From the NCBI RefSeq assembly GCF_016950255.1, contig NZ_JACGFN010000001.1, forward strand, positions 620,001 through 684,000: DNA of 64,000 bases, given 5' to 3'. The notes under the pieces are model-generated. The model saw nothing but the letters and a program-made list of their open reading frames with translations, did no database searches and was not told the DNA's origin. The stretch comes from Pectobacterium brasiliense. Lineage in GTDB: Bacteria; Pseudomonadota; Gammaproteobacteria; Enterobacterales; Enterobacteriaceae. Of this stretch, positions 1-29,690 are shown one piece after another (within the stretch, counting starts at the first letter, position 1; each line of letters begins with the position of its first letter). Made by a program: the position numbers and the translations under genes.

Positions 1-510
1 ACAATAGCAAAGGATTTAAGTGATTTAGTTAATTATCGATTATATGCAGTTAAAATTTATTGTGAAGGAATCTCGTCTGGCGGAGTGAGTGATTCTACGA
101 GAGAGCATTATCGGAAGTCTGTATCAGAATGGAACAGTAAAATTCATTCAATATATAGTTCACTCAACATGTATGACATTGTAGACCTTTCCACCGAAAT
201 CGAGTCTGACATACATAATGAATTTGTAAGAATACATAATTTATTTGTTAAGAACATTGAGAAGAAGTATGTAGATCCAGTTGTTATTTTTGAAATAAAA
301 AAATCAATTCATCAAATTGGTAATAAGTCGTCATTTTATTCTAGAGTTATATCGGAGATGGCTGATGCATCATGGGATAAGACACTAGATAAAACAGAAC
401 CTCTCACTCAATATAACTTACCAATCGCTAGTAATCTTACTCTTGTAAAAAGACTCTTTAATTTTAATCGATCTTCTTTGAGTGTGAATCGCTCTATTTA
501 TAAGGAGTAA
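1..510 (+). CDS. Hypothetical protein, 5' end outside the window
   Basis: The frame is open from base 1, so the gene very likely starts upstream; a GTG at 85 is the first possible internal start. The visible 169 residues are Lys/Ser/Asn-rich and mostly helical in character, without a signal peptide, membrane segment or motif I recognise. The DNA is very AT-rich, unlike the core genome to the right, which points to transfer. The last 93 bp overlap the 3' end of the convergent transglycosylase gene. No function can be assigned. Confidence 0.5.
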   Translation, partial: TIAKDLSDLVNYRLYAVKIYCEGISSGGVSDSTREHYRKSVSEWNSKIHSIYSSLNMYDIVDLSTEIESDIHNEFVRIHNLFVKNIEKKYVDPVVIFEIKKSIHQIGNKSSFYSRVISEMADASWDKTLDKTEPLTQYNLPIASNLTLVKRLFNFNRSSLSVNRSIYKE

Positions 511-1098
511 ATCTCTTTTTACTGATGGGTTTTTAGGTCTTGGTTGTTGAAGCATGGCTGCTATCATGGAACTTTCAAATATTGTTAGGTCTGCAACATT
601 ATATTTATGAAACATGTAGCTCATTGACTCGTGAACACCATTCATATAGGCTCCAAAATAAGCATAATTAAGATAGCAATTTAATATACGTAACTTTGAA
701 TATCTTCTATTGATAGCTATAGCTAGAAGTATTTCTTTAATTTTTCTAGATAAAGTTCTATCTTTATATTTCGTTATTGTTCTTACGAGTTGCATCTCTA
801 TTGTACTGGCTCCTCCATGGTCTCTAAAAGTAGCCATTTTTATTAAATTTCTCACTATCGATATAATATCAACGCCATAGTGATAGAAAAAACGCCTATC
901 TTCTATTGCTATTACATGAAAATGTAGGTCTGTGTAATCATCTGAAACCCACCAATAGTTATTGAATTTACTTTCTATTTCGTACAAATCATCGTTTATC
1001 TTAACAAGATAATCGTGAAGGGCATTTTTTGCTCTTTTTAATGAAATGACTAATTTTTTTAAACTTAAAAAATGCGACATAGGATTATTAGCTGGCAC
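418..1098 (-). CDS. Stand-alone GT51 peptidoglycan glycosyltransferase-like protein
   Basis: About 226 residues. The middle and C-terminal part carries the family-51 transglycosylase signature: the E-D-R-R-F block with the catalytic Glu near residue 69, then G-A-S-T-I-E-M-Q-L-V-R-T, the R-K-I-K-E-I block, Y-L-N-Y-A-Y-F-G, and a final Q-P-R-P-K-N-P. Family members polymerise lipid II into glycan strands. MtgA is the usual monofunctional form and has an N-terminal membrane anchor; I see no clear anchor here, only a basic helical N-terminus. The start is uncertain: GTG at 1098 or ATG at 1080, neither with a strong ribosome site. It is AT-rich, isolated from any cell-wall operon, and overlaps a convergent gene by 93 bp. 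It is probably an accessory gene of phage or island origin. Confidence 0.7.
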   Translation of the reverse strand: MPANNPMSHFLSLKKLVISLKRAKNALHDYLVKINDDLYEIESKFNNYWWVSDDYTDLHFHVIAIEDRRFFYHYGVDIISIVRNLIKMATFRDHGGASTIEMQLVRTITKYKDRTLSRKIKEILLAIAINRRYSKLRILNCYLNYAYFGAYMNGVHESMSYMFHKYNVADLTIFESSMIAAMLQQPRPKNPSVKRDLLLINRAIHTQRRSIKIKESFYKSKITSDW

Positions 1099-1330: not shown

Positions 1331-1642
1331 ATGTGCAAAGCCCGATTTACCGAGCACCAGATCATCGCCGTGTTGAAGTCCGTTGAAGCCGGACGTACCG
1401 TCAAAGACGTTTGTCTCGAAGCGGGGATATCCGAGGCCTCGAACTACAACTGGAAAGCCAAATTTGGTGGTATGGAAGCGTCTGATATCAAAAAGATGAA
1501 AGATCTGGAAGACGAAAACCGACGGCTGAAACAGATGTTTGCCGATCTGAGTCTGGAGTGCCGTGCACATCAAAGATGTTATTGAAAAAAAGCTTTAAAA
1601 CCAGCGATAAAGCGTGAGCTCGTCATATTGATTTGTTAGAAA
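1331..1642 (+). pseudogene. Remnant of an IS3-family (IS407-type) transposase orfA/orfB
   Basis: The 84-residue reading frame begins like IS407-group OrfA (R-F-T-E-H-Q-I-I-A-V-L-K-S-V-E-A-G), has the helix-turn-helix and the leucine-zipper-like K-D-L-E-D-E-N-R-R-L-K-Q-M-F-A-D-L. It then shifts frame after L-S-L-E-C-R-A. The usual orfA end and the first codons of orfB (L-K-P-A-I-K-R-E-L-V) are visible just after in another frame, up to about 1642, and then the similarity is lost. The DDE domain is absent, so the element cannot move itself. A possible left end, TGTAAGT, lies near 1250. Confidence 0.8.
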
Positions 1643-1680
1643 TGGCTCGTGAGATATGAAGTTGTTTGTCGCAGTAGGAT

Positions 1681-1801
1681 ATTTAACTTATATTGAGCGA
1701 GAATCCAGTTCATAAACCACAGATGACATATCTCTTTGCTTTAAATGAATATTTTTAATAGAAAGATGAATTCACTTCCAGGTAACTTCATGAACTAACA
1801 G
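1681..1801 (+). repeat. 120-bp island repeat, copy A
   Basis: The left block, 1681-1713 (begins ATTTAACTTAT, ends CAGTTCAT), matches 6152-6184 at all but three or so positions. The right block, 1785-1801 (ACTTCATGAACTAACAG), is identical to 6255-6271. The roughly 70 bp in between are unrelated. Total length is 121 bp here and 120 bp in copy B. Conserved ends of fixed spacing around a free middle suggest a recombination or attachment site rather than a gene. Confidence 0.75.
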
Positions 1802-2656: not shown

Positions 2657-3685
2657 ATGCTTGATCGCCAGCGTAGGGAATATGACATAACCTATGTATT
2701 TTCACTACTCAGTACAAATATTACCTTCAACAGCCAGCAGTCCAAGCTCGATATAAATAAAGTGATGGAAACAGTGTTGACTGGCCTGTTGAATAAGATA
2801 CTGGGTCTCTCACTGGTAAATCTCAATACAATAAAGCATAACCATCCTGCTATTGATTTAGGAGATTACGCAACAGGATCGGCCATACAGGTAACATCTG
2901 ACGGTTCAAAAGCAAAGTTTGAAAAAACAATCGATATGTTTATTAAACACAATTTGCAACAATCGTTCAGTAAAATATCGTTTCTCATCATATCTAATGA
3001 CCCTAAGATTTCTTTTTCACGAAAGCCATTTGATATAGAAGTAAATAATTTATCAGATCTCGCTAAAGAGATATGCGATCTAGAAGACGGGCGTTTTAAT
3101 GAAGTATATGCTTACTGTGAATCGAACTTTAGCGTATATTTTCCTAATAATAACAGGAGCATGCTTGAGCCAACGTTACGCTCATCAGTTGATCCGTCAT
3201 CGATCATTGGTTTCTTTTTAAATGCAAATGATATAGTTGTAACAGATGAGCATATAAATTGCTCAGTAGATGACATAAGGGATCAACTGATAAGCTTAAA
3301 AGAAAGATTAAGTAAATTTTCTAATGATCAACGTTGGTTTATTTACAGGGTAATGGAATGGACTATGAATGAGTATAAATCTAAGTGGATAGAATATTGC
3401 CTCGCCCCTAGAACGGTAATAGAAAGATCAATTGATGATATAGACATAAGAAAACTAAGAGACATAGTTAGTTCTCTTGAGCACTCGGGCGTGGCAGGAT
3501 ATGACGAATGCGACCATAATCTTCAAACTGATGGCTTTTTTATACAATATAAAACAGGTATGCCTGAAGAATTTGACTATTTTGCTGGGATAGTAACCTT
3601 TCTTAGAAAGACCGAAGAGGTGCGGAATCGAAATAATAACCTAAAACAGATCATAATCGATTGTGACTTTTCCTGTATTAACTGA
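2657..3685 (+). CDS. SMEK-domain protein, probable defence-associated
   Basis: 342 residues. The first 110 fit the SMEK domain: an N-terminal helix with the S-L-L-S-T-N-I segment, then V-N-L-N-T (residues 54-58), P-A-I-D-L-G-D (64-70), A-I-Q-V-T-S (76-81) and a lysine-rich helix. The D-x(n)-Q-V-T-S arrangement recalls a nuclease-like fold, which is inference. Known members sit at the N-terminus of proteins encoded in predicted conflict or defence loci. Residues 130-342 have no domain I recognise and may be the effector or sensor part. The gene is AT-rich, lies between the two island repeats, and is followed by a gene remnant and an FRG-domain gene in the same direction. Confidence 0.7.
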   Translation: MLDRQRREYDITYVFSLLSTNITFNSQQSKLDINKVMETVLTGLLNKILGLSLVNLNTIKHNHPAIDLGDYATGSAIQVTSDGSKAKFEKTIDMFIKHNLQQSFSKISFLIISNDPKISFSRKPFDIEVNNLSDLAKEICDLEDGRFNEVYAYCESNFSVYFPNNNRSMLEPTLRSSVDPSSIIGFFLNANDIVVTDEHINCSVDDIRDQLISLKERLSKFSNDQRWFIYRVMEWTMNEYKSKWIEYCLAPRTVIERSIDDIDIRKLRDIVSSLEHSGVAGYDECDHNLQTDGFFIQYKTGMPEEFDYFAGIVTFLRKTEEVRNRNNNLKQIIIDCDFSCIN

Positions 3686-3689
3686 ATGA

Positions 3690-3956
3690 TTAAATCAGGA
3701 AATTATAAAATTTAGGTATTCGTTTACGCATGCGGAAGAATACCGCTTTCTCCGCAGGGATAAGAATGATGAAAAGAGAAGGGGCGAGAAAGTAAAACAG
3801 GACGAGGCAACCGCTTCGTCCTGGCTAACCATTCATTATGATGCTTGGGAGGTCGTACACACCATTAAAGACCTGATGAGTTCATTGCCAGACTTCACTA
3901 ATGTTGATACCGAATTTCTGGCAAAAAAAACGGCTGATAAATCTGTTCGGACTTAA
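3690..3956 (+). pseudogene. 5'-truncated gene remnant coupled to the FRG gene
   Basis: The frame is open for 88 codons and looks coding: charged helical sequence including E-E-Y-R-F-L-R-R-D-K, then S-W-L-T-I-H-Y-D-A-W-E-V-V-H-T-I-K-D-L-M. It has no start codon before an internal ATG about 80 bp from the end. Its TAA stop overlaps the ATG of the next gene (TAATG), the arrangement expected for translational coupling. It therefore looks like the C-terminal part of a former partner gene upstream of the FRG gene. I do not recognise the family. Confidence 0.45.
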
Positions 3957-4924
3957 TGAGGAAACAGAATAAAATGCGTTACAGGAAACAACCTGAAGAA
4001 GCAATTGAGTCTGTCATAGATTTTGTTGAATACGTCAATGGCTGGACACACGGAGGAAAGTTTCCTACAGCTTTCCGGGGGCAAGCTTTCTATGGATGGA
4101 TTGCGAAGCCTAAGATATTCCGTGGAGAAGGACAAATGTATGAAAATGAGAACAGGGCGATTAGAGATATAGTTTCAATTCACCCCTCTGAATTTGAGTC
4201 AGACAAAACAATGTTTGATCGTCTGGTGCGTATGCAACATTTTGGTCTGCCAACAAGACTCATGGACATCACTCTAAACCCGCTTGTCGCATTGTGGTTT
4301 GCTACAGAGGATTACGTTTTTACCGATAATAGCAAATCTATAGTTAAAGGTCCGCAGGGAGGGACGGTTACAGCTTATTTTGTCCCTGAATCAAGGCAGC
4401 GTTACTATGACAGCGACCGCGTAAGTTGTATGGCGAACGTGGCTAACCTGAGTGGTAAAAGCAAAGAAATGTTATTTAGTTTGGCGCTTAATAGCACTGA
4501 TTGTGAGACATTCCTAGAAAAGAGTGCGAACGAAAAAAATATTCATGGTTTTAACAAAGATGTGCTGGATGAGCTTTACTATCATATAGGTATGGAAAAA
4601 CCTCACTTCAGAAAGTTAATGAACCCTCAAGACTTACTCAAACCCATTTATGTGAAACCGAAACTGAGTAATAAAAGAATTATTGCACAGTCTGGCGCAT
4701 TTATGCTCTATGGTTCGCAAGTTAACACGGTGAAATCAACTGAAGAAGTACTTCCAACAGGCAGGATCTTCATCGCTGCTGAACACAAAGAGCAAATTAG
4801 GGTGCAACTTGAGCGTTTAGGAATTTATGAAAGCATTCTCTTCCCTGAAATTGAGAGGTCAGCAAAATTTATTTCTCGTAATTATTCCAGAATGCTTTCG
4901 GATGAAGATGAATTATACTTATGA
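3956..4924 (+). CDS. FRG-domain protein
   Basis: 322 residues with a clear FRG domain: F-R-G-Q at 40-43, a conserved Trp at 48, P-S-E-F at 77-80, and M-Q-H-F-G-L-P-T-R-L-M-D at 93-104 followed by N-P-L-V-A-L-W-F-A. FRG domains are named for the F-R-G motif. Their activity is not settled, and they are often found in phage-defence loci and prophages. The start ATG overlaps the stop of the preceding remnant. A gene with a HEPN-like motif follows 142 bp downstream on the same strand. Either the two genes work together or each is a separate cargo. Confidence 0.85.
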   Translation: MRKQNKMRYRKQPEEAIESVIDFVEYVNGWTHGGKFPTAFRGQAFYGWIAKPKIFRGEGQMYENENRAIRDIVSIHPSEFESDKTMFDRLVRMQHFGLPTRLMDITLNPLVALWFATEDYVFTDNSKSIVKGPQGGTVTAYFVPESRQRYYDSDRVSCMANVANLSGKSKEMLFSLALNSTDCETFLEKSANEKNIHGFNKDVLDELYYHIGMEKPHFRKLMNPQDLLKPIYVKPKLSNKRIIAQSGAFMLYGSQVNTVKSTEEVLPTGRIFIAAEHKEQIRVQLERLGIYESILFPEIERSAKFISRNYSRMLSDEDELYL

Positions 4925-6151: not shown

Positions 6152-6271
6152 ATTTAACTTATGTTGCGCGAGAATTCAGTTCATGAAAAAAATATCAGTA
6201 TCATATTGTTTTTAATTATTATTTAAGTTAACAGGCCTATTGGCTGCATAGATGACTTCATGAACTAACAG
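6152..6271 (+). repeat. 120-bp island repeat, copy B
   Basis: Same architecture as copy A. The left block, 6152-6184 (ATTTAACTTATGTTGCGCG and on), and the right block, 6255-6271 (ACTTCATGAACTAACAG, identical to A), are separated by unrelated AT-rich DNA. Copies A and B are direct repeats 4.35 kb apart that bracket the SMEK, FRG and HEPN-like genes. Confidence 0.75.
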
Positions 6272-10987: not shown

Positions 10988-11728
10988 TCACACTACCAAT
11001 TTAAGTAGACTGAAGGAATACTTGGTACAAGCAAACGCACGCCATATCGGATAGAGGGGACTATGAACGAAACCATCGAAAAACTGATTGCCAGTGGAAA
11101 GGAAGGACCATGGTGGGACTTTAAACAAACCTACCCGAATCGCTGTGGCCATTTCAAACAGTCCTGCGCTGATCATGTTTTTTTCGAGTGGATCGAGGAC
11201 ATTGTCAACTTCCTGATAGATGCCCCAGTCATTGGAATGTGGGCGTGGAATGAATTCGATCTCTTCGTAATCGTCGAGGGTGAAGCCGGGGAATGCTTCA
11301 GCGCAGAGGATTTTTAAGCCGAAAATGATATAGTAAAAATATCGTGGTTCTATTTCCTGTGTTTCAAGGTAATCTTTCAACACTGCAAACGTGAAAGAAG
11401 ATTTGGTTATGCAATGTTCCGTTGCCAAAGACCATGCATGGAGAACTCCAGGAACCTGGGCTGGACACTTGGCTGACGCATAACGGAAACAAATATATTT
11501 GATTAATTGGTTGCTGATTTTATCCTGACGATAGTGGGCATAGCAGCGGCTACCTGAATAATCGAAAACCCAACTATCACTTGTTGAGTTGATATACTTA
11601 TCATCGAAAAAATCTGCCGACTTGAGATAAATGCTAGCTGGTATATTAACATTTAAAACACGCTCAACAAATACAGATGCGTAAATGCTACTCCTCGGCT
11701 CATTTAGCTGTCTATTAATTCGACTCAT
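10988..11728 (-). pseudogene. Truncated large tyrosine recombinase (second recombinase)
   Basis: The likely start is ATG 11728, with GGAG five bases before it, overlapping the end of the upstream recombinase by 14 bp; an earlier ATG is at 11752. About 195 residues look native and resemble the N-terminal region of large recombinases paired with smaller ones in multi-recombinase elements such as Tn554. From about 11140 to 10988 the frame only runs through the antisense of another gene's start, so the native C-terminus, including any catalytic domain, has been lost. The family assignment is an inference from layout, not from conserved motifs. Confidence 0.45.
11063..11140 (+). pseudogene. Start of an AlbA_2/Schlafen-type gene, cut off
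   Basis: Has GAGGGGACT before ATG 11063, then M-N-E-T-I-E-K-L-I-A-S-G-K-E-G-P-W-W-D-F-K-Q, the usual opening of AlbA_2 (Schlafen-like) DNA- or ATP-binding proteins. After about codon 26 the similarity stops and the DNA belongs to the opposite-strand recombinase. The gene originally lay 135 bp after the Avs-like gene on the same strand and may have been its partner. Confidence 0.55.
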
Positions 11729-13175
11729 ATACACTCCATTCGTCGCATACATTTGAAAAGGTTGCTCTCAGGGCCTCGTTATCCATCGCAATTCGATGAA
11801 GATTGGCCGTATTAGCCTGCTGCGATAGAAATCTTTTGGCATAAATATCAGGCATATGGCTATTGTAACTCCAGCCGCCAAGCAGTCGTAACTCATCCTT
11901 GGCCTCATTCATCAATCCAGCGCTAGAAAAATCTATTGCCGCCAAACGTGAGTTGACATTAATCTTTTTAAGTTTTTCACCATAAATGCGTTGAAGTGTC
12001 AAATAGGCCCATGTATGTCGTGTTATATGAGGCGAGATGCTTTCAATGGCATCAAAGCATTTATCTGATTTATATTCAGGATGCTGTACGCTAAATGTGT
12101 CATCTATCTTGGAAAAAATGTCATAAATAGTGTGGTATGACAGCGGCGGATGTTGTCCCTGAGTCGAAGTGAACAGGAAACTATGCGAGGTTCGATGGCG
12201 AACTTTACGGGTATAAAGACTTAGAAAGTGGTAGTCCAGTTTATCTAACGCCAGCACCCGGTTTGCATAGATATTCTTTAATGAAGGCAATCTTTTTCGT
12301 GGGTCTGGTATGTCTTCATCCACAGTTGTCACAATTAGGCTGAACTGATCCCCTCGGAGATTGGGTTTAATAGAATGACACTCCAAAAGCAGTAATTCAC
12401 TGACACGTAATCCATAATTTAAAAGTAATCTGCAAATCAGAAAGTTACGTAATTGTATTTCACCAGCAGGGAAGGGATTAAGTGGGTTTTTCTTTGAAGC
12501 TGAATCGGGTGTAATGATTTGGTAAAAAGCTATGATCATATCAGTCGTTAGACTTCGAAAGCGCTGATGGGTAATTTTGTTGTTCATCTGACGAGAATGA
12601 GCAAGAGTGCGGAATTCTTCTTTATGTATCGATAACCGACTAGTTAACTGTGTGGCAAGCCGTGTGAGTTCTATAGGCGAGCCATCAACATACCTCGGCG
12701 AGACATACGTATTAATCAGATATCTCATAAAGCGAATAACCGCATGTACATATCCAACGTTTGTGCGGCGTGAAGACGTGTTCTGTATAGAGCCGATAGC
12801 TAAGATTGGTGCACATGAATGCCCATTTTCCAGATAATGAAAAAAGGCTGTCAGTTCTTCAATGGCGATTAATGGATTGTGGTCCGAGGAATTGAAACTG
12901 AAGCAAAACGTCACGCCATATTTCTGGTACCAGAATTCATAGAAAAACTTGATCGCTTGAAGTGAAGCGGATTGGGTAGCTGCTGTACGCAAAGCCAGGT
13001 GGTCCACAAGATATTGTAGCGGGTACAAAAGCGGCAGGCATGTATGAGTATCCATCAGTACCCATAGGCGCTGCCGTTGGTTGATATTGAACTGTGCGAG
13101 TGCGAACATGCGGCATTTATCCTCACAAGTAATATGTGTATAAAGAAAATAACCGGCAAACATAATGCGTAGCAA
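11715..13175 (-). CDS. Tyrosine site-specific recombinase
   Basis: Up to 486 residues; M23 is an alternative start. The N-terminal half (about 50-200) is the likely core-binding helical domain. The catalytic domain has all expected residues: R257 in G-L-R-V-S-E-L-L, H383 and R386 in H-I-T-R-H-T-W, W435 in G-G-W-S and the nucleophile Y445 in D-I-Y-A-K-R. These enzymes cut and rejoin DNA at specific sites for integration, excision or inversion. The gene begins about 80 bp from dif and reads away from it, followed by the truncated second recombinase. This makes it the probable integrase of the island or of an element inserted beside dif. It is larger than XerC/XerD (about 300 residues) and is not either of them. 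Confidence 0.88.
   Translation of the reverse strand: MLRIMFAGYFLYTHITCEDKCRMFALAQFNINQRQRLWVLMDTHTCLPLLYPLQYLVDHLALRTAATQSASLQAIKFFYEFWYQKYGVTFCFSFNSSDHNPLIAIEELTAFFHYLENGHSCAPILAIGSIQNTSSRRTNVGYVHAVIRFMRYLINTYVSPRYVDGSPIELTRLATQLTSRLSIHKEEFRTLAHSRQMNNKITHQRFRSLTTDMIIAFYQIITPDSASKKNPLNPFPAGEIQLRNFLICRLLLNYGLRVSELLLLECHSIKPNLRGDQFSLIVTTVDEDIPDPRKRLPSLKNIYANRVLALDKLDYHFLSLYTRKVRHRTSHSFLFTSTQGQHPPLSYHTIYDIFSKIDDTFSVQHPEYKSDKCFDAIESISPHITRHTWAYLTLQRIYGEKLKKINVNSRLAAIDFSSAGLMNEAKDELRLLGGWSYNSHMPDIYAKRFLSQQANTANLHRIAMDNEALRATFSNVCDEWSVYESN
12469..12476 (+). promoter_or_regulatory. KOPS motif pointing toward dif
   Basis: GGGAAGGG fits the FtsK-orienting consensus GGGNAGGG. It lies left of dif on the plus strand, the orientation that would guide FtsK toward dif. 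Confidence 0.45.
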
Positions 13176-13254
13176 GGAGAAGATGAAGTGTAGGGTAAGT
13201 GTATGATTGATCGTAGTCTGCAGGTGGTTATGAACTAAAGGGATGGCAGACTAA

Positions 13255-13282
13255 ATTTAACATAATATACATTATGCGAACC
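13255..13282 (-). other. dif: dif, chromosome dimer resolution site
   Basis: Read on the minus strand: XerC arm GGTTCGCATAA, centre TGTATA, XerD arm TTATGTTAAAT. This equals the E. coli dif sequence except for one base in the outer XerC arm (GGTT for GGTG). XerC and XerD recombine here, activated by FtsK, to separate chromosome dimers at division. It marks the replication terminus and forms the boundary between the accessory island and core genes. Confidence 0.92.
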
Positions 13283-21856: not shown

Positions 21857-22546
21857 ATGAATAAAATAACCTCATTAGCCTTGTCTGCATTATGCGTTAT
21901 TCCCCTAATTAATACCGCTCACGCCCAGTGGGAACTGGACGATATCTGTTACGGCTACGCCACCGCAACAGGCTCTGGCTATCAGGGCGGTGCCCTTTTG
22001 CTGGATCCGATCCCGCAGAATATGGAGATCACGGCGTTAAACCGGAACCAACTGGATTACCGTGGCGTGAAGGCGTCGCTGGCTGGGGCCTACCTGAAAG
22101 TGAATGGACCAAAAGGCAGTACGGTGGTTTATGTCACTGACCTCTATCCCGAAGGTGGCGATTGTGCATTGGATTTATCGTTTAACGCTTTTGAAAAAAT
22201 AGGCGATCTGCGAGACGGAAAAATTAATATCGACTGGACGCTGATCGAAGCGCCAGTAAATGGCAACGTTATTTATCGTATAAAGGAAGGTTCAAACCCT
22301 TATTGGGCTGCGGTGCAATTCAGGAACGTAAAATATCCCGTTATTGAAATGAAATATATGCGCAATAACCAATGGATTGCTGCACAGAAAACCGATTATA
22401 ACCACTTTATTGTTGAGCACGTTGGAATGAACGATATTCCGATTGAATTTACCGACGTAAAAGGTAATGTCCTCAGCGATACGCTGCCGCCGATGTCACA
22501 AAGCACCTCATCCGCTTACCTGATCACGGGTAACGTCCAGCTTTAA
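21857..22546 (+). CDS. exlX: Bacterial expansin
   Basis: 229 residues with a signal peptide ending near A-H-A. The N-terminal double-psi barrel (G-Y-A-T-A-T-G-S-G-Y-Q-G-G-A ... L-D-P-I-P) and the C-terminal carbohydrate-binding domain align closely with Bacillus subtilis EXLX1. The conserved Asp is in A-L-D-L-S. The binding surface has Y-W-A-A where EXLX1 has W-W-A-A, and the third aromatic in D-Y-N-H-F is kept. Cysteines in D-I-C-Y and G-D-C-A are absent from EXLX1 and may form a disulfide. Expansins loosen plant cell walls without hydrolysis and are found in plant-colonising bacteria. It is secreted and has its own terminator. Confidence 0.93.
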   Translation: MNKITSLALSALCVIPLINTAHAQWELDDICYGYATATGSGYQGGALLLDPIPQNMEITALNRNQLDYRGVKASLAGAYLKVNGPKGSTVVYVTDLYPEGGDCALDLSFNAFEKIGDLRDGKINIDWTLIEAPVNGNVIYRIKEGSNPYWAAVQFRNVKYPVIEMKYMRNNQWIAAQKTDYNHFIVEHVGMNDIPIEFTDVKGNVLSDTLPPMSQSTSSAYLITGNVQL

Positions 22547-22834: not shown

Positions 22835-24241
22835 GTGGCAAAATTATTTTTACGTAGTGGAAGTTTGGATGATTTTCTGGCGCTGGGTGAGAACGGGCAG
22901 CCAGTTTATGCATCAGCACTTCAATTGCGGGAAACGTTACGTCTCAGAAAACAGCAGCAGATTGCCGATTGCCTGGCGATTCCCCAACCCAACGAGCATG
23001 GCGACCGCATTGACTGGTATTCGCCGGTTGACGGTAAAGTCACCTCCTGGATTGCCGCGAGCGAAGAAGAACGAGAAAAGGCGCTGGCGTTACTGGAAAC
23101 CTATCAAGCTGCGGTGGCCGACATCAGCCAGCGTGCGCAAAATGCAGAAAAAGCCGGGCAGAAACTTTTCGGTGTCCTGCTGGCAAAAGCGATACAGTTC
23201 CCTGGAGCAAACCACGTCTATCTGGTTGATGGCAAACCCGTCTTAACGTTCTGGGGCTTCGTCAACCTTGATAAAAAATCTCGTCTTGATGCGTTAGACT
23301 GCCTGCGACCTGTCATCAGGGAAGCGGAACCGCTTTTTGTTGCACCCGCCCCCGCAGCAAGCGCACCAACACAGCCGTTGGTCGAACCCGTTTCTGAACC
23401 TGAGCCACAGCCGGTCAGCCCACCGGAACCCGTCGAGCCAGCGCCAGCCGTCACCGCAGCGGCACCAGCTCGCCCACAGTTCTTCCGCCTGTGGTGGCTG
23501 TTACCTGCCGCCGCGCTGTTAGCGATTTTGTCATTGCAGATACGTGGCTGCGTGTCAGGGCAAGACGACAAGCCGACATCCGATTTAGCCGCGACGGTCA
23601 AACCAGAAAAACGCGCCCTGCCGTCTTCAACTCCGGCTGAACCTGCGCCGCAGCAAGAAAGCACTCCTGTTCCGCCTGCCGCAGAAAAAGAGGTCGCGAA
23701 AGCCGCTGAGCCACCAGTCGCTACGGCCCCGGTTGCTGCTGCGCCAGTAGCAGAAGCGGTCAAACCGGAAGCGCCTGCGGTCACGGAACCAAAAGAGCCT
23801 GTTGCGCCGCCAGTTGAGCCCGTTGTTGAGCAAGTGCCAGCGATTCCTGCGGGCAAAGACGATCTCGTCATGCCAGCCGACGCGGTGAAAATCGGCTCCA
23901 TCAAATTCCTGAACGGCAACTGGCGCGTCATTGTTGATGGCAAAGCGCCGATTACCGGTAGGCCACCTAGTCTGCGCTACCAGATTCAAAATGGAAAAGG
24001 CACGGCACGTATCACTCATGGTGACGGTGTCACGTGTCGCGCTAACGTTGAGGCAGGATTAATGAGCTCTGGCAATCTGATCATCAACAGCCGTTCCGGT
24101 GCCCGCTGTTCCGATAATTCTCGTTTCCAAATGCCAGAGCTGGTCTGTAAACAAGGCGCTTCCGGCGCCGCTGCGGAGTGTATCGGTCGTTACGACGCAG
24201 ACACCGTTTTCCCGATGACGATAAAGCGCGAGAGTAAATAA
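22835..24241 (+). CDS. srfA: SrfA family protein
   Basis: 468 residues from GTG 22835. The opening F-L-R-S-G-S-L-D-D-F-L-A-L-G and the W-Y-S-P-V-D-G segment match SrfA. A proline-rich linker is followed by one membrane helix at about 222-240 (L-W-W-L-L-P-A-A-A-L-L-A-I-L), a long Pro/Ala/Glu-rich stretch, and a C-terminal domain with four cysteines, probably periplasmic. First gene of srfABC, two bases before srfB. The srf genes were first named in Salmonella as SsrB-regulated; molecular function is unsettled. Confidence 0.88.
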   Translation: MAKLFLRSGSLDDFLALGENGQPVYASALQLRETLRLRKQQQIADCLAIPQPNEHGDRIDWYSPVDGKVTSWIAASEEEREKALALLETYQAAVADISQRAQNAEKAGQKLFGVLLAKAIQFPGANHVYLVDGKPVLTFWGFVNLDKKSRLDALDCLRPVIREAEPLFVAPAPAASAPTQPLVEPVSEPEPQPVSPPEPVEPAPAVTAAAPARPQFFRLWWLLPAAALLAILSLQIRGCVSGQDDKPTSDLAATVKPEKRALPSSTPAEPAPQQESTPVPPAAEKEVAKAAEPPVATAPVAAAPVAEAVKPEAPAVTEPKEPVAPPVEPVVEQVPAIPAGKDDLVMPADAVKIGSIKFLNGNWRVIVDGKAPITGRPPSLRYQIQNGKGTARITHGDGVTCRANVEAGLMSSGNLIINSRSGARCSDNSRFQMPELVCKQGASGAAAECIGRYDADTVFPMTIKRESK

Positions 24242-24243
24242 TC

Positions 24244-27231
24244 ATGCTGGCGACGATTACCGATTATAAACAACGCATTACGTTGATCCAGGACAGCGGA
24301 ATTCAGTTTTTGGATTTTGCCTTAAAGCCGCAGTTTTCAGCTGAGCAGCCTAACCGCTATGTGCGTAAAAGTGCCAACGGCCCTCTGTTGCACCTGCTGT
24401 ACGATGAACACTCGGACAAATTCCTGCTGCCTTCTGCCACCGGTATGCCGCCGGAGGTGGTGAAGCCTGAGCTGAGTATTTCGCTTGAGCAATCGCTGAA
24501 GCTGCTGGAGAACATCTGGTTGCCGCTGCCCTTCTTCCGCTTTAATCCGCCTCGCACCTTCATGGGCGGACCGGATAACTGGGCGCGGATGCAGATTCTT
24601 GCGTTGGATAAGCCCGATCAGGACGGCAACACGCACCGCATTTGTCTGGCGTTCGATACCAAAACCTACCCAGAAGGTCACGAGTACGAATCGCTGGCAC
24701 CTAATGCCAATGACATCAAAACCGGCGGGAGCTTCGCGCTGGCTTACCACAGCGACGAACTGGGTGAATTCCTTGATGAAACCTGGGTCGATGGCTGGCT
24801 GCGCGAAGTCTTTACTCAGCGGGTTAAAGCGCTGGAAAGCCGCGACAGCCACGATGTAAAAGTGGCGCTCAGAGGGTTTGAATATCAGGCACATTACCTG
24901 AATGTGTTGGATATGCTGGGTAACCAGCTCGAAATACCGGAAATCCGCATCAATACCAGCACGTTGCAGGAACCGGCAGTTAACGTTGACCTGATTTTGG
25001 ACGTCGGTAACTCGCACACCTGCGGCATTCTGGTTGAGGATCATGCAGACGAAAGCAACGGTCTGAAGCAGACCTATGAGCTGCAATTGCGCGATCTGAG
25101 TGAGCCACATTATCTGTACAACGAACTGTTCGAGAGTCGCGTTGAGTTTTCACAGGCGAAGTTCGGTAAAGAAAACTTCTCGGTAGAAAGCGGCCGTGAT
25201 GACGCCTTTATCTGGCCGTCAATCACTCGCGTCGGACGCGAAGCCAGCCACATGGCGCTGCTGCGTCAGGGAACGGAAGGATCGAGCGGTATTTCCAGCC
25301 CGCGTCGCTACCTGTGGGACGAAGAAAGTTATGCGCCAGGCTGGCGTTTCAGCCAGACCGACGCACATTCGCAGACCGAACCGCTAGCGACAGCCATGCC
25401 ATTGACCATCATGCTGAATGATGAAGGTCAGCCGCTCTACAGTCAGCCGCTGGAAGAGCGTTTACCGGTGTTTTCACCGCACTACAGCCGCAGTTCGATC
25501 ATGACATTCATGCTCTCCGAACTGCTGGCACAGGCGCTGATGCAGATGAACAGCGCCGCTCAGCGTTTGAAGATGATCCACAGCAGCGCGCCGCGTCAGT
25601 TGCGAAATATTATTCTGACGCTGCCTTCCGCGATGCCGAAACCCGAGCGTGAAATTTTCCGCCGCCGTATGCATGAAGCGATCGCGCTGGTCTGGAAAGC
25701 GATGGACTGGCATCCGATGGATGAGGATTTCACCACGCCAGCCGACAAGCAGCACAGCCGGGTTCCGGTGCCTGACGTGCAAATCGAGTGGGACGAAGCC
25801 ACATGCGGACAGATGGTTTACCTGTATAACGAAGCGCAGGTGAATTTTGGCGGCCGTGCGGAAGATTTCTTCGCCAGTATGGCGCGCCCCGATAAAGAAC
25901 TCGATGAGGGCGAACCCGCTGGCAAAACGCTGCGCATTGCCTCAATCGACATCGGCGGCGGCACCACCGACCTCGCCATTACGCAATATCTGCTCGATGA
26001 CGGCGTCGGCAACAACGTTAAAATCATTCCCCGCCTGCTGTTCCGTGAAGGCTTTAAGGTCGCTGGCGACGATATTCTGCTGGATGTGATTCAGCTTTAT
26101 ATCCTCCCGGCGCTACAGGCCGCGCTGAAAACCGCCGGAATGGCCAGCCCGGATGCGCTGATGGCGAAGTTGTTCGGCAATGAAGGTCGTATGGACGCAC
26201 AGCTCACGCTGCGCCAGCAGGTGACGTTGCAGGTCTTCATCCCGATCGGCCGGGCGATCCTGGAAGCCTATGAACGCTTTGATCCGCTGGACACCAGCGC
26301 CGAGATCGAATCCACCTTCGGCGAATTATTGGAACAGGCACCAACGGAAAAAGTGCTGGAATACATCAATACAGAAGTGCAACGCGAGCTACCCGTCAGC
26401 GACAAGGTCTTCGATATTTTGCAGGTGCCGCTGATTCTCAAACTGAGCAAACTGCACGGCGAATTCCTGTCTAACAAGATGAACATCACGCAGAATCTGC
26501 GCCTGATGTCTGAAGTGGTGTCGCTGTATTCATGCGATGTGCTGCTGCTGACCGGTCGCCCTTCGCGCTTCCCAGGAATTCAGGCACTGTTCCGCCACCT
26601 GCAGCCGCTGCCGATTAATCGGATGCTGTCGCTGGATGGCTATCACACCAATGACTGGTATCCGTTTAACAAACGTGGGCGCATCGATAATCCGAAATCC
26701 ACTGCCGCCGTCGGCGCGATGCTGTGCCTGCTGGCGCTCGATCTGCGCCTGCCGGGCTTTTACTTTAAGGTCGGTGATTTCCAGCCTTATTCTACGGTGC
26801 GCTATCTAGGCATGATGGACAGTAGCAACGCGCTGACGCTGGATAACGTTTACTACAGCGATATCGATCTGGATGCGCCGGATTTCGAGCTCGACCCGAC
26901 ACTCAGTTTCCAGGTACGTGGCTCACTCTGCCTCGGCTTCCGCCAGTTGGACAACGAGCGCTGGCCTGCGTCCTCACTTTATATGCTCTCAATCGTCGAT
27001 CAGGATTTAGCGCGTAAGGTCGTCGGCGACAGTAAGCTGCGTGTCCGACTGGCCGTAACGAAAAGCGACGATCAAGACAGTCCCGAACGCTTTGAGATTG
27101 CCGATGCGGTACTGGAAGACGGCACCCGAGTTCCACCACAGCATTTACGACTCAAATTGAACACATTATCCGCTAACGGCTCAGGTGCGACCCATTATTG
27201 GATCGATAGTGGGAGTGTATTTAAAAAATGA
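24244..27231 (+). CDS. srfB: SrfB family protein
   Basis: 995 residues. It has actin/Hsp70-like phosphate-binding motifs: L-D-V-G-N-S-H-T near residue 257 and I-D-I-G-G-G-T-T-D-L-A near residue 568. It is therefore probably an ATPase of the actin-like superfamily, cytoplasmic, without signal or membrane segment. It follows srfA by 2 bp and overlaps srfC by the 4-bp ATGA, so the three are translated together. No truncation is seen. Confidence 0.9.
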   Translation: MLATITDYKQRITLIQDSGIQFLDFALKPQFSAEQPNRYVRKSANGPLLHLLYDEHSDKFLLPSATGMPPEVVKPELSISLEQSLKLLENIWLPLPFFRFNPPRTFMGGPDNWARMQILALDKPDQDGNTHRICLAFDTKTYPEGHEYESLAPNANDIKTGGSFALAYHSDELGEFLDETWVDGWLREVFTQRVKALESRDSHDVKVALRGFEYQAHYLNVLDMLGNQLEIPEIRINTSTLQEPAVNVDLILDVGNSHTCGILVEDHADESNGLKQTYELQLRDLSEPHYLYNELFESRVEFSQAKFGKENFSVESGRDDAFIWPSITRVGREASHMALLRQGTEGSSGISSPRRYLWDEESYAPGWRFSQTDAHSQTEPLATAMPLTIMLNDEGQPLYSQPLEERLPVFSPHYSRSSIMTFMLSELLAQALMQMNSAAQRLKMIHSSAPRQLRNIILTLPSAMPKPEREIFRRRMHEAIALVWKAMDWHPMDEDFTTPADKQHSRVPVPDVQIEWDEATCGQMVYLYNEAQVNFGGRAEDFFASMARPDKELDEGEPAGKTLRIASIDIGGGTTDLAITQYLLDDGVGNNVKIIPRLLFREGFKVAGDDILLDVIQLYILPALQAALKTAGMASPDALMAKLFGNEGRMDAQLTLRQQVTLQVFIPIGRAILEAYERFDPLDTSAEIESTFGELLEQAPTEKVLEYINTEVQRELPVSDKVFDILQVPLILKLSKLHGEFLSNKMNITQNLRLMSEVVSLYSCDVLLLTGRPSRFPGIQALFRHLQPLPINRMLSLDGYHTNDWYPFNKRGRIDNPKSTAAVGAMLCLLALDLRLPGFYFKVGDFQPYSTVRYLGMMDSSNALTLDNVYYSDIDLDAPDFELDPTLSFQVRGSLCLGFRQLDNERWPASSLYMLSIVDQDLARKVVGDSKLRVRLAVTKSDDQDSPERFEIADAVLEDGTRVPPQHLRLKLNTLSANGSGATHYWIDSGSVFKK

Positions 27232-29690
27232 AACGATTAACGCCCAAACAGCTTTCTACCCGACTTCACGGCCAGCTACAGGCCGTTGCGCAAGGTGTTG
27301 AACAGGCCATCGACTGGGTTGAAAGCACACGCCAGAACGCCCCGCGTCTGGATATCGAAGCCGACCGTCTGATCGTCAAACTGCGCCGTAATCACAATAA
27401 AGCGCAACACCTGTCCGACGTGGCGCAAAAAGAGATCGCCATCGGCTTTTTTGGCCTGTCTCAGGCGGGAAAATCTTACCTGATCGCGTCGCTGGCCGGG
27501 GGTGAAAACGGCAAGCTGGAAACCGCTTTTGAAGGGCAAGAGCTGGATTTTATCGATCACATTAATCCGTCCGACCGAGCAACCGCGCTCGTCACGCGCT
27601 TCAGCCGACAGTCGGGCGTGAAGAACAAATCGTTTCCCGTTCAGTTGCAACTGCTCAACGAATTGGATATCGCTAAGATCATGGCCAACGCGTTTTTAAA
27701 CGATCTCAATCAAGAGACCACGTTTGAAGAGTTGGACGAACGCCATATTGCCGAACACATTAAAACCCTGGTGATGCACCGTCAGCCAGAACCGGTTGAA
27801 GGGATGAGCCGCGATGAAGTCGTCGAACTCTGGGACTATCTGGCACGTCACGATGTTAAACGACAAAAACAGCTGGAAACCCACTTCTGGCCAGTTGCGA
27901 TTGAATTAGCGCCTTACCTCACCGTTGACGATCGCGCCCAGCTTTTCTCCGTACTGTGGGACGAGTTGAATTCGCTAACCACCGCATATCGTCATTTCAG
28001 CCACACGCTGCAACACCTATCCGGTACGCGCAAGCTGTTAGCGCCGCTGCGGATACTGGTGGATGATGAATTAAATCCGGCAGACGGTCTGATCGACGGT
28101 TCTGCGCTGGAACGCTTGCACAGTGCTGACGATCCCGGCGTGCTGGTGCGGCCGGTTCAGAATGGCCGTGCAGGGAAAACGACGGAGCTTTCGCTGGCCG
28201 AGTTAACGATGCTGACGGCGGAGCTACTTATCCCACTGCATTTGCCGCCTAAAGAAGCGCTGTTCGAGCAGGTTGATGTGCTGGATTTCCCCGGCTTTGG
28301 TGAGATTCGCGAAACGCGGAACGAGCCACCAGCAAGACAGCAAAGCACACCGCATCCACTAGCGCACACGCTATTGCGAGCGAAACGCGCCTATCTGCTG
28401 GAGCGCTATACCGATAATCAGGAAATGAACGTACTGATGGTATGCAGCGCCGCGGGCAACCGCGCTGACGTTAAAGTGGTCGGCAAGGCGCTGGACCACT
28501 GGGTTAAACAGACGCAAGGCGAAAATGCACAGGTTCGTAGCCACCGTAAACCAGGGCTGATTTGGGCGGTCACCCGTCACGATCGCCGTATTACGCACGG
28601 GCAAAACTATGATGCCGCGGTACAGCGCTATGTCGGTAATCCGGGCGATGCCTGGGGAACGATGCTGGCGATGGATAAGCGCGGCGTAGCGCGGATGGCA
28701 ACATGGCTGGGCGCGGAAGTTCACCGGGATGTAAAACTGGGGCGCATCAGCGAACAGCTGAGCGAACTCCAACGAGAACTCAGCGATAACCTGCTGGGTA
28801 ATTGGTATCTGCCCGTTGATGTTGACGATCCGGCGGAAAAACAGCGCATCGCAGAAACCTTGCTCAAATCGCTCCAGACCCGCACCGGCGTGCACGGTGA
28901 ACTGCTGGAACGGTTGCTGCCTTCGCGTGATGAACTGCGCCGCCTGTACCTGCAACAGAAAGGGGCAAGCTATGGCGGTTTCCACGCTGATGCCGAAGAC
29001 CTTTCCGCCCCGTCCGCGCATAGCGATCCGTTTGGTGTCGGGATCGAAATCGATCTGTTTGCTGATGAACCAATCGCTATCGATCAGCCTGCACCGCCGA
29101 TTTTGACGATCGATCACGGCTATGAGGCAGACTACGCGCACGGCGTTTATCGTTATTGGATTAACTATCTACGTGGCTTGCCGGAAAATGCCCCGCTTCT
29201 CGATTTGCTGAACGTGCCGAAAGCGACGATCGAAATGCTGGTTGAAGAATTGATTACCGGCAGCATCCGTTTGCGGATCGAAGAGGCACTGGTCGATATG
29301 CTGGTCGACGGTGAGCAGTTGGGCATCAACCGCGAGAATAAAGCTGACCGTCAGGTTTCACGCGTGCTGACCATTCTTGGTGACTTCGTTGCCTGGCTCG
29401 GCTTCCAGCAGCTTGATGAATCCCTGCGCCCTGCCAGCCGCATTAATCGCGGTCATAAAATTTTCGCTAAACCCGAAAAGCAGGCCGTCAGCTTTGGGGC
29501 TTCACAGCGCTTAACCAAATTGTCGCTCACGCCGACCAACAATACCGCGTTTTATATCTATGACTGGCTGGTGGGTCTGAATGAAATGATCATCCAGAAT
29601 GCAGGCTATTCCGCTGCGCGAGAAGTCAGCGATGAACAACGTGAACAATTGGGCACGATTCTGACGTTGATTAAGCCTGCTGAGAAATAA
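27228..29690 (+). CDS. srfC: SrfC family GTPase-like protein
   Basis: 820 residues. The P-loop G-L-S-Q-A-G-K-S lies at about 76-83 and D-F-P-G-F-G-E at about 350-356, the G1 and G3 motifs of dynamin-like or large GTPases. Annotated in many genomes as a putative virulence effector; I recall reports treating srfABC as a toxin-antitoxin-like operon but cannot confirm them here. Last gene of the operon, followed by a terminator. Confidence 0.9.
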   Translation: MKRLTPKQLSTRLHGQLQAVAQGVEQAIDWVESTRQNAPRLDIEADRLIVKLRRNHNKAQHLSDVAQKEIAIGFFGLSQAGKSYLIASLAGGENGKLETAFEGQELDFIDHINPSDRATALVTRFSRQSGVKNKSFPVQLQLLNELDIAKIMANAFLNDLNQETTFEELDERHIAEHIKTLVMHRQPEPVEGMSRDEVVELWDYLARHDVKRQKQLETHFWPVAIELAPYLTVDDRAQLFSVLWDELNSLTTAYRHFSHTLQHLSGTRKLLAPLRILVDDELNPADGLIDGSALERLHSADDPGVLVRPVQNGRAGKTTELSLAELTMLTAELLIPLHLPPKEALFEQVDVLDFPGFGEIRETRNEPPARQQSTPHPLAHTLLRAKRAYLLERYTDNQEMNVLMVCSAAGNRADVKVVGKALDHWVKQTQGENAQVRSHRKPGLIWAVTRHDRRITHGQNYDAAVQRYVGNPGDAWGTMLAMDKRGVARMATWLGAEVHRDVKLGRISEQLSELQRELSDNLLGNWYLPVDVDDPAEKQRIAETLLKSLQTRTGVHGELLERLLPSRDELRRLYLQQKGASYGGFHADAEDLSAPSAHSDPFGVGIEIDLFADEPIAIDQPAPPILTIDHGYEADYAHGVYRYWINYLRGLPENAPLLDLLNVPKATIEMLVEELITGSIRLRIEEALVDMLVDGEQLGINRENKADRQVSRVLTILGDFVAWLGFQQLDESLRPASRINRGHKIFAKPEKQAVSFGASQRLTKLSLTPTNNTAFYIYDWLVGLNEMIIQNAGYSAAREVSDEQREQLGTILTLIKPAEK

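Follow-up and report, generated by a model that had tools for sequence, protein, structure and literature searches.

The window, by which we mean the whole 64,000-nt stretch of DNA analysed (contig C1:620001-684000), holds a chromosomal dif site with an accessory island on one side of it (Table 1). Read on the minus strand, the site is GGTTCGCATAATGTATATTATGTTAAAT. It shares 27 of 28 bases with the E. coli dif, a query that is matched exactly in MG1655, and the single mismatch is the fourth base, in the outer XerC arm, as the initial annotation had it. The mismatch is ordinary, because T stands at this base in 23 of 25 genomes of the genus. The site has the structure of a dif (28 bp, with an XerC arm, a 6-bp centre and an XerD arm, one per chromosome), and each of the 25 genus genomes carries exactly one copy. 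At ≤3 mismatches, the E. coli sequence finds one match in the window and none in 100 shuffles, and the window's own dif sequence finds one match in the 4.88-Mb genome (7 contigs).

GC skew is positive in 10 of the 11 stretches left of dif on the contig (ten of 20 kb plus the 13-kb part within the window), the sole negative one being 600-620 kb (-0.018). To the right, the skew is negative in every one of the 13 stretches between dif and 2.92 Mb and positive in the last sample, at 3.2 Mb. The motif KOPS, which we take to be GGGNAGGG, reverses its polarity at the same point: counts below 1.8 Mb are 10:2 left of dif and 0:14 right of it (Fisher p = 1.2e-5, a test that omits five samples beyond 1.8 Mb with 0:4). 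The identification as chromosomal dif thus stands on the sequence match, the single copy in the genome and the position at the GC-skew and KOPS switch. The initial annotation had named a better dif elsewhere, or skew switching far away, as what would overturn it; there is one dif per genome, and the switch is at dif. The host genome has one XerD match above the family cut-off and a second match, below it, that may be XerC. None of the phage records matches the dif region.

The island lies on the XerD side of dif and is about 13.7 kb long, ending ~0.5 kb left of the window. It opens with a left end that also stands behind the XerD arm in the E. coli, Klebsiella, Citrobacter and LSJC7 copies, followed by ginA, whose start faces the XerD arm. 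This gene has 80% identity to ginA of LSJC7, and its catalytic residues, picked out by eye, are likely R256, H383, R386, W435 and the Y445 region. From about 11134 leftward, similarity to the gin operon ends and 98.7% identity to the cargo of genome G022 begins. A complete ginABCD is thus absent from the window, which has ginA and the start of ginB, and ginC was not found in the window's genome in a search run without a positive control. Because the operon is incomplete, we file the island as a remnant of a GInt (ginABCD island) and not as a GInt. A Pseudomonas GInt requires all four gin genes to excise and to integrate, according to the available part of PMC5385486, and by that analogy the youngest layer, which is without ginC, ginD and most of ginB, should be immobile by itself.

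The cargo of this layer is an Avs2 homolog, present in two of the 25 genus genomes: the window's own and G022, whose 99% identical copy is also near dif. As an aside, the cargo (window 11134-6494) matches G022 (L065), which belongs to another species, at the DNA identity given above, and the adjoining gin genes differ. Judging from these sequences, dif islands have probably exchanged cargo recently.

Behind the operon, as in a GInt, come this cargo region and a right-end sequence, scar 1, which is followed by unassigned sequence. The second layer has lost its own left end and retains three genes, two of them with matches to defence-related models. Scar 2, which shares the pattern CAAyATAAGTTAAAT with scar 1, abuts an older left end, and the island is therefore a stack. 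Imperfect direct repeats of ~10-17 nt mark the ends (TATGTTAAAT at 13255 versus TAAGTTAAAT at 6152/1681). We read the window as holding three layers of decayed GInts.

Table 1. Features of the dif site and the adjoining island, from dif leftward (window coordinates)
Feature	Position	Strand	Remarks
Chromosomal dif, putative rebuilt attL	13255..13282	-	only such site in genome; skew and KOPS switch
XerC arm of dif	13282-13272	-	
dif centre	13271-13266	-	
XerD arm of dif, TTATGTTAAAT	13265-13255	-	
Left end of youngest GInt layer, TTAGTCTGCCATCCCTTTAGTTCATAACC...	13160..13254	-	extends to roughly where ginA homology begins
ginA, tyrosine recombinase gene with open frame, 486 codons	11715..13175	-	Pfam Phage_integrase 1.4e-5
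ginB 5' part, broken	10988..11752	-	similarity to intact ginB stops at about 11134
Avs2 homolog, cargo, 1376 codons	6797..10927	+	PADLOC Avs2 3.6e-201
Right-end scar 1, CAACATAAGTTAAAT	6152..6166	-	
Second layer ORF, 237 codons	5067..5780	+	no family found
Second layer FRG-domain protein	3956..4924	+	matches candidate defence model PDC-S15
Second layer SMEK-domain protein	2657..3685	+	partial match to Argonaute-associated nuclease model
Right-end scar 2, CAATATAAGTTAAAT	1681..1695	-	
Left end of oldest layer, ATCCTACTGCGACAAACAACTTCATATCTCACGAG...	1610..1680	-	directly behind scar 2; resembles dif left end in G014, G022
Oldest layer ORF with transglycosylase domain	418..1098	-	

The island edge in related genomes

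The dif site is the exact edge of the accessory island, and the placement of the island beside it is no accident. Synteny with 20 of 24 genus relatives restarts 13,698-13,811 bp from dif, about 445-560 bp past the window start. In G011, G023, G005 and G017, the point at which synteny resumes is only 147-211 bp from dif. The syntenic stretch beyond the island is absent from the stretches fetched for G009, G013 and G019. The initial annotation had everything left of dif as accessory and everything right of it as core. The first half is true inside the window, synteny returning only beyond its start. The second half is roughly right, with two exceptions: an ArgP-type gene right of dif is present in 17 of 25 genus genomes, and the first 1.9 kb on the XerC side is patchy, coverage in relatives ranging from 0 to 1891 bases.

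Two further observations concern the surroundings of dif. In G006 (L063), DNA that lies beyond the island in relatives sits inverted on the XerC side of dif, which suggests a rearrangement around dif. The region 8-16 kb to the right of dif in the window contains SrfA-family, SrfB and putative virulence-factor genes (srfABC-like) and an expansin gene (22835-29690 and 21857-22546).

Junctions at empty and occupied sites

Strains of E. coli give the junctions base by base. In MG1655, where the site is unoccupied, the sequence runs dif-CATGTCTGAGTG. Occupied strain H3 has dif-TTAGTCCGTCG, then ginABCD and CBASS genes, and 11.5 kb on, GTTCAACATAAGTTAAAT-CATGTCTGAGTG. The right junction of PK5, whose element carries a type I restriction system, is the same as that of H3; on the XerC side PK5 also has ISNCY and three more genes. 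Compared with K-12, host sequence in both strains is intact through the last base of dif and restarts directly after GTTAAAT at the far end, so the crossover falls within these seven bases. They are common to the XerD arm and the right end of the element. The breakpoint accordingly lies in the outer XerD arm, outside the central region of XerC/XerD strand exchange; one side of the insertion has a whole dif, and the opposite side has a scar. For another GInt, six-nucleotide staggered cuts were inferred (PMC5385486, accessible part).

The gin module and its target

In LSJC7 (L035), the GinA homolog leads a row of four genes that overlap or abut and encode 488, 524, 787 and 144 residues; the first two have Pfam Phage_integrase matches, and the last two have no Pfam match. 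Close homologs of the window's GinA in relatives adjoin dif in the same orientation. A full ginABCD stands at dif in LSJC7, in G009, in the distant G054 (32-38% identity) and in G006, with one stop in ginA. No solved structure was matched by sequence. The centre of the G054 dif, TCTATC, was considered as a swap made by the element and rejected, as the same centre occurs in many genomes of that genus and is native.

Across 37 GinA-type loci, 31 have the exact XerD arm 52-206 bp before the GinA homology and in the same orientation. These 31 loci, on chromosomes and plasmids and with GinA identity down to 31%, are not independent, because many are near-copies. The other six are L103, in which ginA is cut at the start, L142, a GInt adjoining ssb, L134 and L143, both on Acinetobacter plasmids, and L110 and L133. 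The count leaves out weak recombinase matches (L014-L024, L029-L033), with no dif-like site within 8 mismatches, and the fragments L025/L034 (G019), L027 (an inner layer in G002) and L037 (Kosakonia), with no dif within 9 mismatches. The ginA fragments of G019 (L025 and L034, G019:C19:218889-219231) lie on another contig with no dif nearby, as an inner stack layer or a second site.

At plasmid Xer sites, the left half varies (AGTACATATAA-CAAAGA, TGTGCGCACAA-TCTATC, GGTGCGTGTAA-TCATTG and others) and the XerD arm is constant. Plasmid pKOCBH-A (L104) has an Xer site with no GInt on the XerD side; the sequence beyond the site occurs in only 5 plasmid records, which makes this site at most a candidate for the ancestral empty one of the L093 plasmid family. 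In a GinA tree of 31 rows, the Xer-targeting members do not form one clade (4 changes versus a shuffled mean of 4.8). The available portion of PMC5385486 likewise describes GInts of <35% identity that share the ssb target.

The left-end motif, picked after the sequences were seen, stands directly behind dif in 19 of 25 genus genomes (absent in 6). It turns up in 426 of 14,252 background windows and, on the XerC side, in none of the 25 genomes. Three left-end subfamilies in E. coli, queried as dif plus ~1.2 kb, are at least 80% covered in 141, 93 and 34 of 5,426 genomes, as unmerged counts with a few places on plasmids; 2,627 of the 5,426 have the contiguous K-12 arrangement at dif. A set of 553 E. 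coli genomes was dropped from the occupancy count because many of its matches span only dif and a few bases. The survey beyond Enterobacterales is thin, with GinA matches in 2 of 369 class-level genomes (the window's own included) and 7 of 394 order-level genomes.

Stacking and cargo

Dif-side DNA from 29 sources (541 kb) has five forward occurrences of the right-end motif, taken as ≤2 mismatches to the sequence of scar 1, and no reverse one. The window's genome accounts for two of them, and G002, G006 and G022 for one each. The six E. coli loci scanned gave six further copies, all exact. Of these 11 motifs, eight run straight into another left end, two into the K-12 post-dif sequence, and one, scar 1 of the window, into unassigned sequence. 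Neighbours within E. coli stacks differ in subfamily (L095, I then II; L096, II and later I; L097, III then II). The scar-to-left-end joins mean that dif is open again after an insertion and that the next element enters at the same point.

Cargo was scanned for eight proteins from loci that were picked by their integrase and are not a random sample. PADLOC matches included a CBASS cyclase and TRIP13 (L092), a type I restriction system (L091), Gabija (L095), and PtuA with LmuB (L098); a helicase in L096 had weak partial matches only. Cargo of LSJC7 includes genes that, by eye, resemble arsenic-pump genes.

Probable integration at the XerD arm of dif

So, how did the island come to stand at dif? 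We conclude, with a probability of roughly 0.83, that it is a stack of decayed GInts whose attachment site is the outer XerD arm of dif. Junctions, orientation, scars, stacking and the same arrangement at plasmid Xer sites, as read from the DNA, all point this way. The incoming element, probably a circle, would carry its joined ends as CAACATAA-GTTAAAT-(left end), and GinA, GinB and GinC, with GinD, would exchange strands in the GTTAAAT shared with the XerD arm TTAT-GTTAAAT. At one junction, the left end and ginA would then come after a complete dif, and the other would be a scar, CAACATAAGTTAAAT, followed by the former neighbour sequence of dif. With dif whole again, dimer resolution should continue, the next GInt could enter and older ones would be pushed outward.

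The initial annotation had suggested an element that uses or tolerates Xer recombination. Toleration is a fair description, since the dif sequence stays whole. Use would be expected of an IMEX, an island with a dif mimic inserted by host XerC/XerD, and the exact position at dif in a host with XerD above the family cut-off is what such an element would show. However, a search of 73 kb on the island side for a second dif-like site at the far end, allowing 9 mismatches, found none, the scar retains the outer XerD arm with neither XerC arm nor centre, the breakpoint falls outside the XerC/XerD centre, and the elements bring their own multi-recombinase module, the window's tyrosine recombinase belonging, in relatives, to a four-gene one. 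Use of Xer recombination is therefore not supported, and we regard an IMEX as very unlikely. Even less credible is that GInts insert widely and that homologous recombination around dif has retained or spread those beside it. Near-identical copies are numerous in E. coli, and some spread by recombination or descent is likely, but against this reading stand the base-exact junction, the single orientation, a position shared between unrelated plasmids and between genera, and heterogeneous stacks with a scar at each join.

A variant of the GInt reading, which we think improbable, keeps strand exchange by the Gin proteins and has the target recognised through XerD bound to the arm, not through the DNA letters alone. 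It would explain why the XerD arm stays constant among the targets while the XerC arm, centre and outer flank vary, and why GinA groups of 31-33% identity have a common target. Yet direct recognition of DNA fits the same data, natural Xer sites conserve the XerD arm anyway, and AACATAA at the right end is the inverted inner arm TTATGTT, an arrangement to be expected of a single recombinase that binds the two. A broader proposal, speculative and in our judgement unlikely, is that a guild of defence-carrying islands docks at one common address, dif and plasmid Xer sites, which GInts find through arm-bound XerD, perhaps in an FtsK-timed state. A cell-division site would then have a second role as the place where chromosomes and plasmids take up immune genes, with each stack an ordered record, oldest outermost.

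Relation to known elements

The assignment to GInts follows the published description of these islands. The four-gene operon (two Phage_integrase proteins, a long third and a small fourth) with cargo behind it has the layout given in the accessible text of PMC5385486, and imperfect direct repeats at the ends, site specificity and, in E. coli, defence cargo are further shared features. The targets differ: those published, in the portions available, comprise an ABC-transporter gene and the ends of two others, ssb and a ribonucleotide reductase gene, whereas the elements described here target the XerD half of dif or of plasmid Xer sites, and are stacked. As for naming, GInts are called Tn6571-family in the part of PMC10121019 at hand, and the ginABCD elements Tn6488 and Tn6571 are placed under the Tn554 family in PMC8865565.

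IMEXs such as LME-1 and the gonococcal island also integrate at dif and leave one intact dif; unlike the present elements, which encode a recombinase module and in which no mimic was found, they rely on a dif mimic and host Xer recombinases (PMC9765430, excerpts). Filamentous phages, too, have been described as dif-mimic elements inserted by XerC/XerD. The IS1202 family, for example ISKpn21, targets dif and dif-like plasmid sites in one orientation, but it does so with a transposase, ~5 bp outside the XerC arm and with target duplication (PMC10132070, available part), whereas GInts use the XerD side and tyrosine recombinases. The window's island, which lies on the XerD side and has a tyrosine recombinase gene at its head, is thus not of this family. 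Strand-biased circularizing elements and Tn554 share several tyrosine-recombinase-type proteins, target specificity and a 6-bp footprint with GInts; they differ in gene sets and targets, and GInts are kept apart in the accessible sections of that paper (PMC10214605).

Already known, then, are GInts, the GInts of E. coli defence hotspots, and dif as a target of IMEXs and, on the XerC side, of the IS1202 family. What appears to be new is a widespread set of GInts that target the XerD half of dif or of a plasmid Xer site and form stacks there. Neither that use nor the stacking was found among the titles and abstract openings listed for open papers, and the word dif has no occurrence in the main texts of PMC5385486, PMC10214605, PMC10121019 and PMC8865565. 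GInts are placed at several E. coli defence hotspots, including number 39, in the available part of PMC10121019, and dif may figure in its supplementary site table.

Implications

The dif site is non-coding and strongly conserved, and many plasmids carry a copy of its XerD arm. By targeting this arm and leaving the site whole, an element would find somewhere to land in most hosts of the group, and would pay little for it. Such targeting would help explain the abundance of GInts and the presence of the same subfamilies in plasmids as in chromosomes; it also offers a mechanism for a defence-gene hotspot beside hipA in E. coli. The highest GInt rate, 39.5% of replicons, was reported for Pectobacterium, by gene content the likely genus of the window, with cargo suggested as a reason (PMC10214605, accessible part). 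A reusable landing site is perhaps another reason, beside cargo, and fits the 19 of 25 genomes with the left-end motif. The scars make the order of acquisition readable.

Two minor observations were made in the course of the survey. A contig labelled 'Chryseobacterium sp. 18061' (L036) has a gammaproteobacterial dif and gin genes 73-85% identical to those of LSJC7, and is probably contamination or a mislabelled contig. The XerC side of the Xer site in L091, L095, L098, L100, L102, L104, L138 and L139 carries insertion sequences of the ISNCY/ISKpn21 type. A single Xer site can thus be bracketed by unrelated mobile elements, an IS on the XerC side and, where present, a GInt on the XerD side; the IS half of this arrangement is already published in the available part of PMC10132070.
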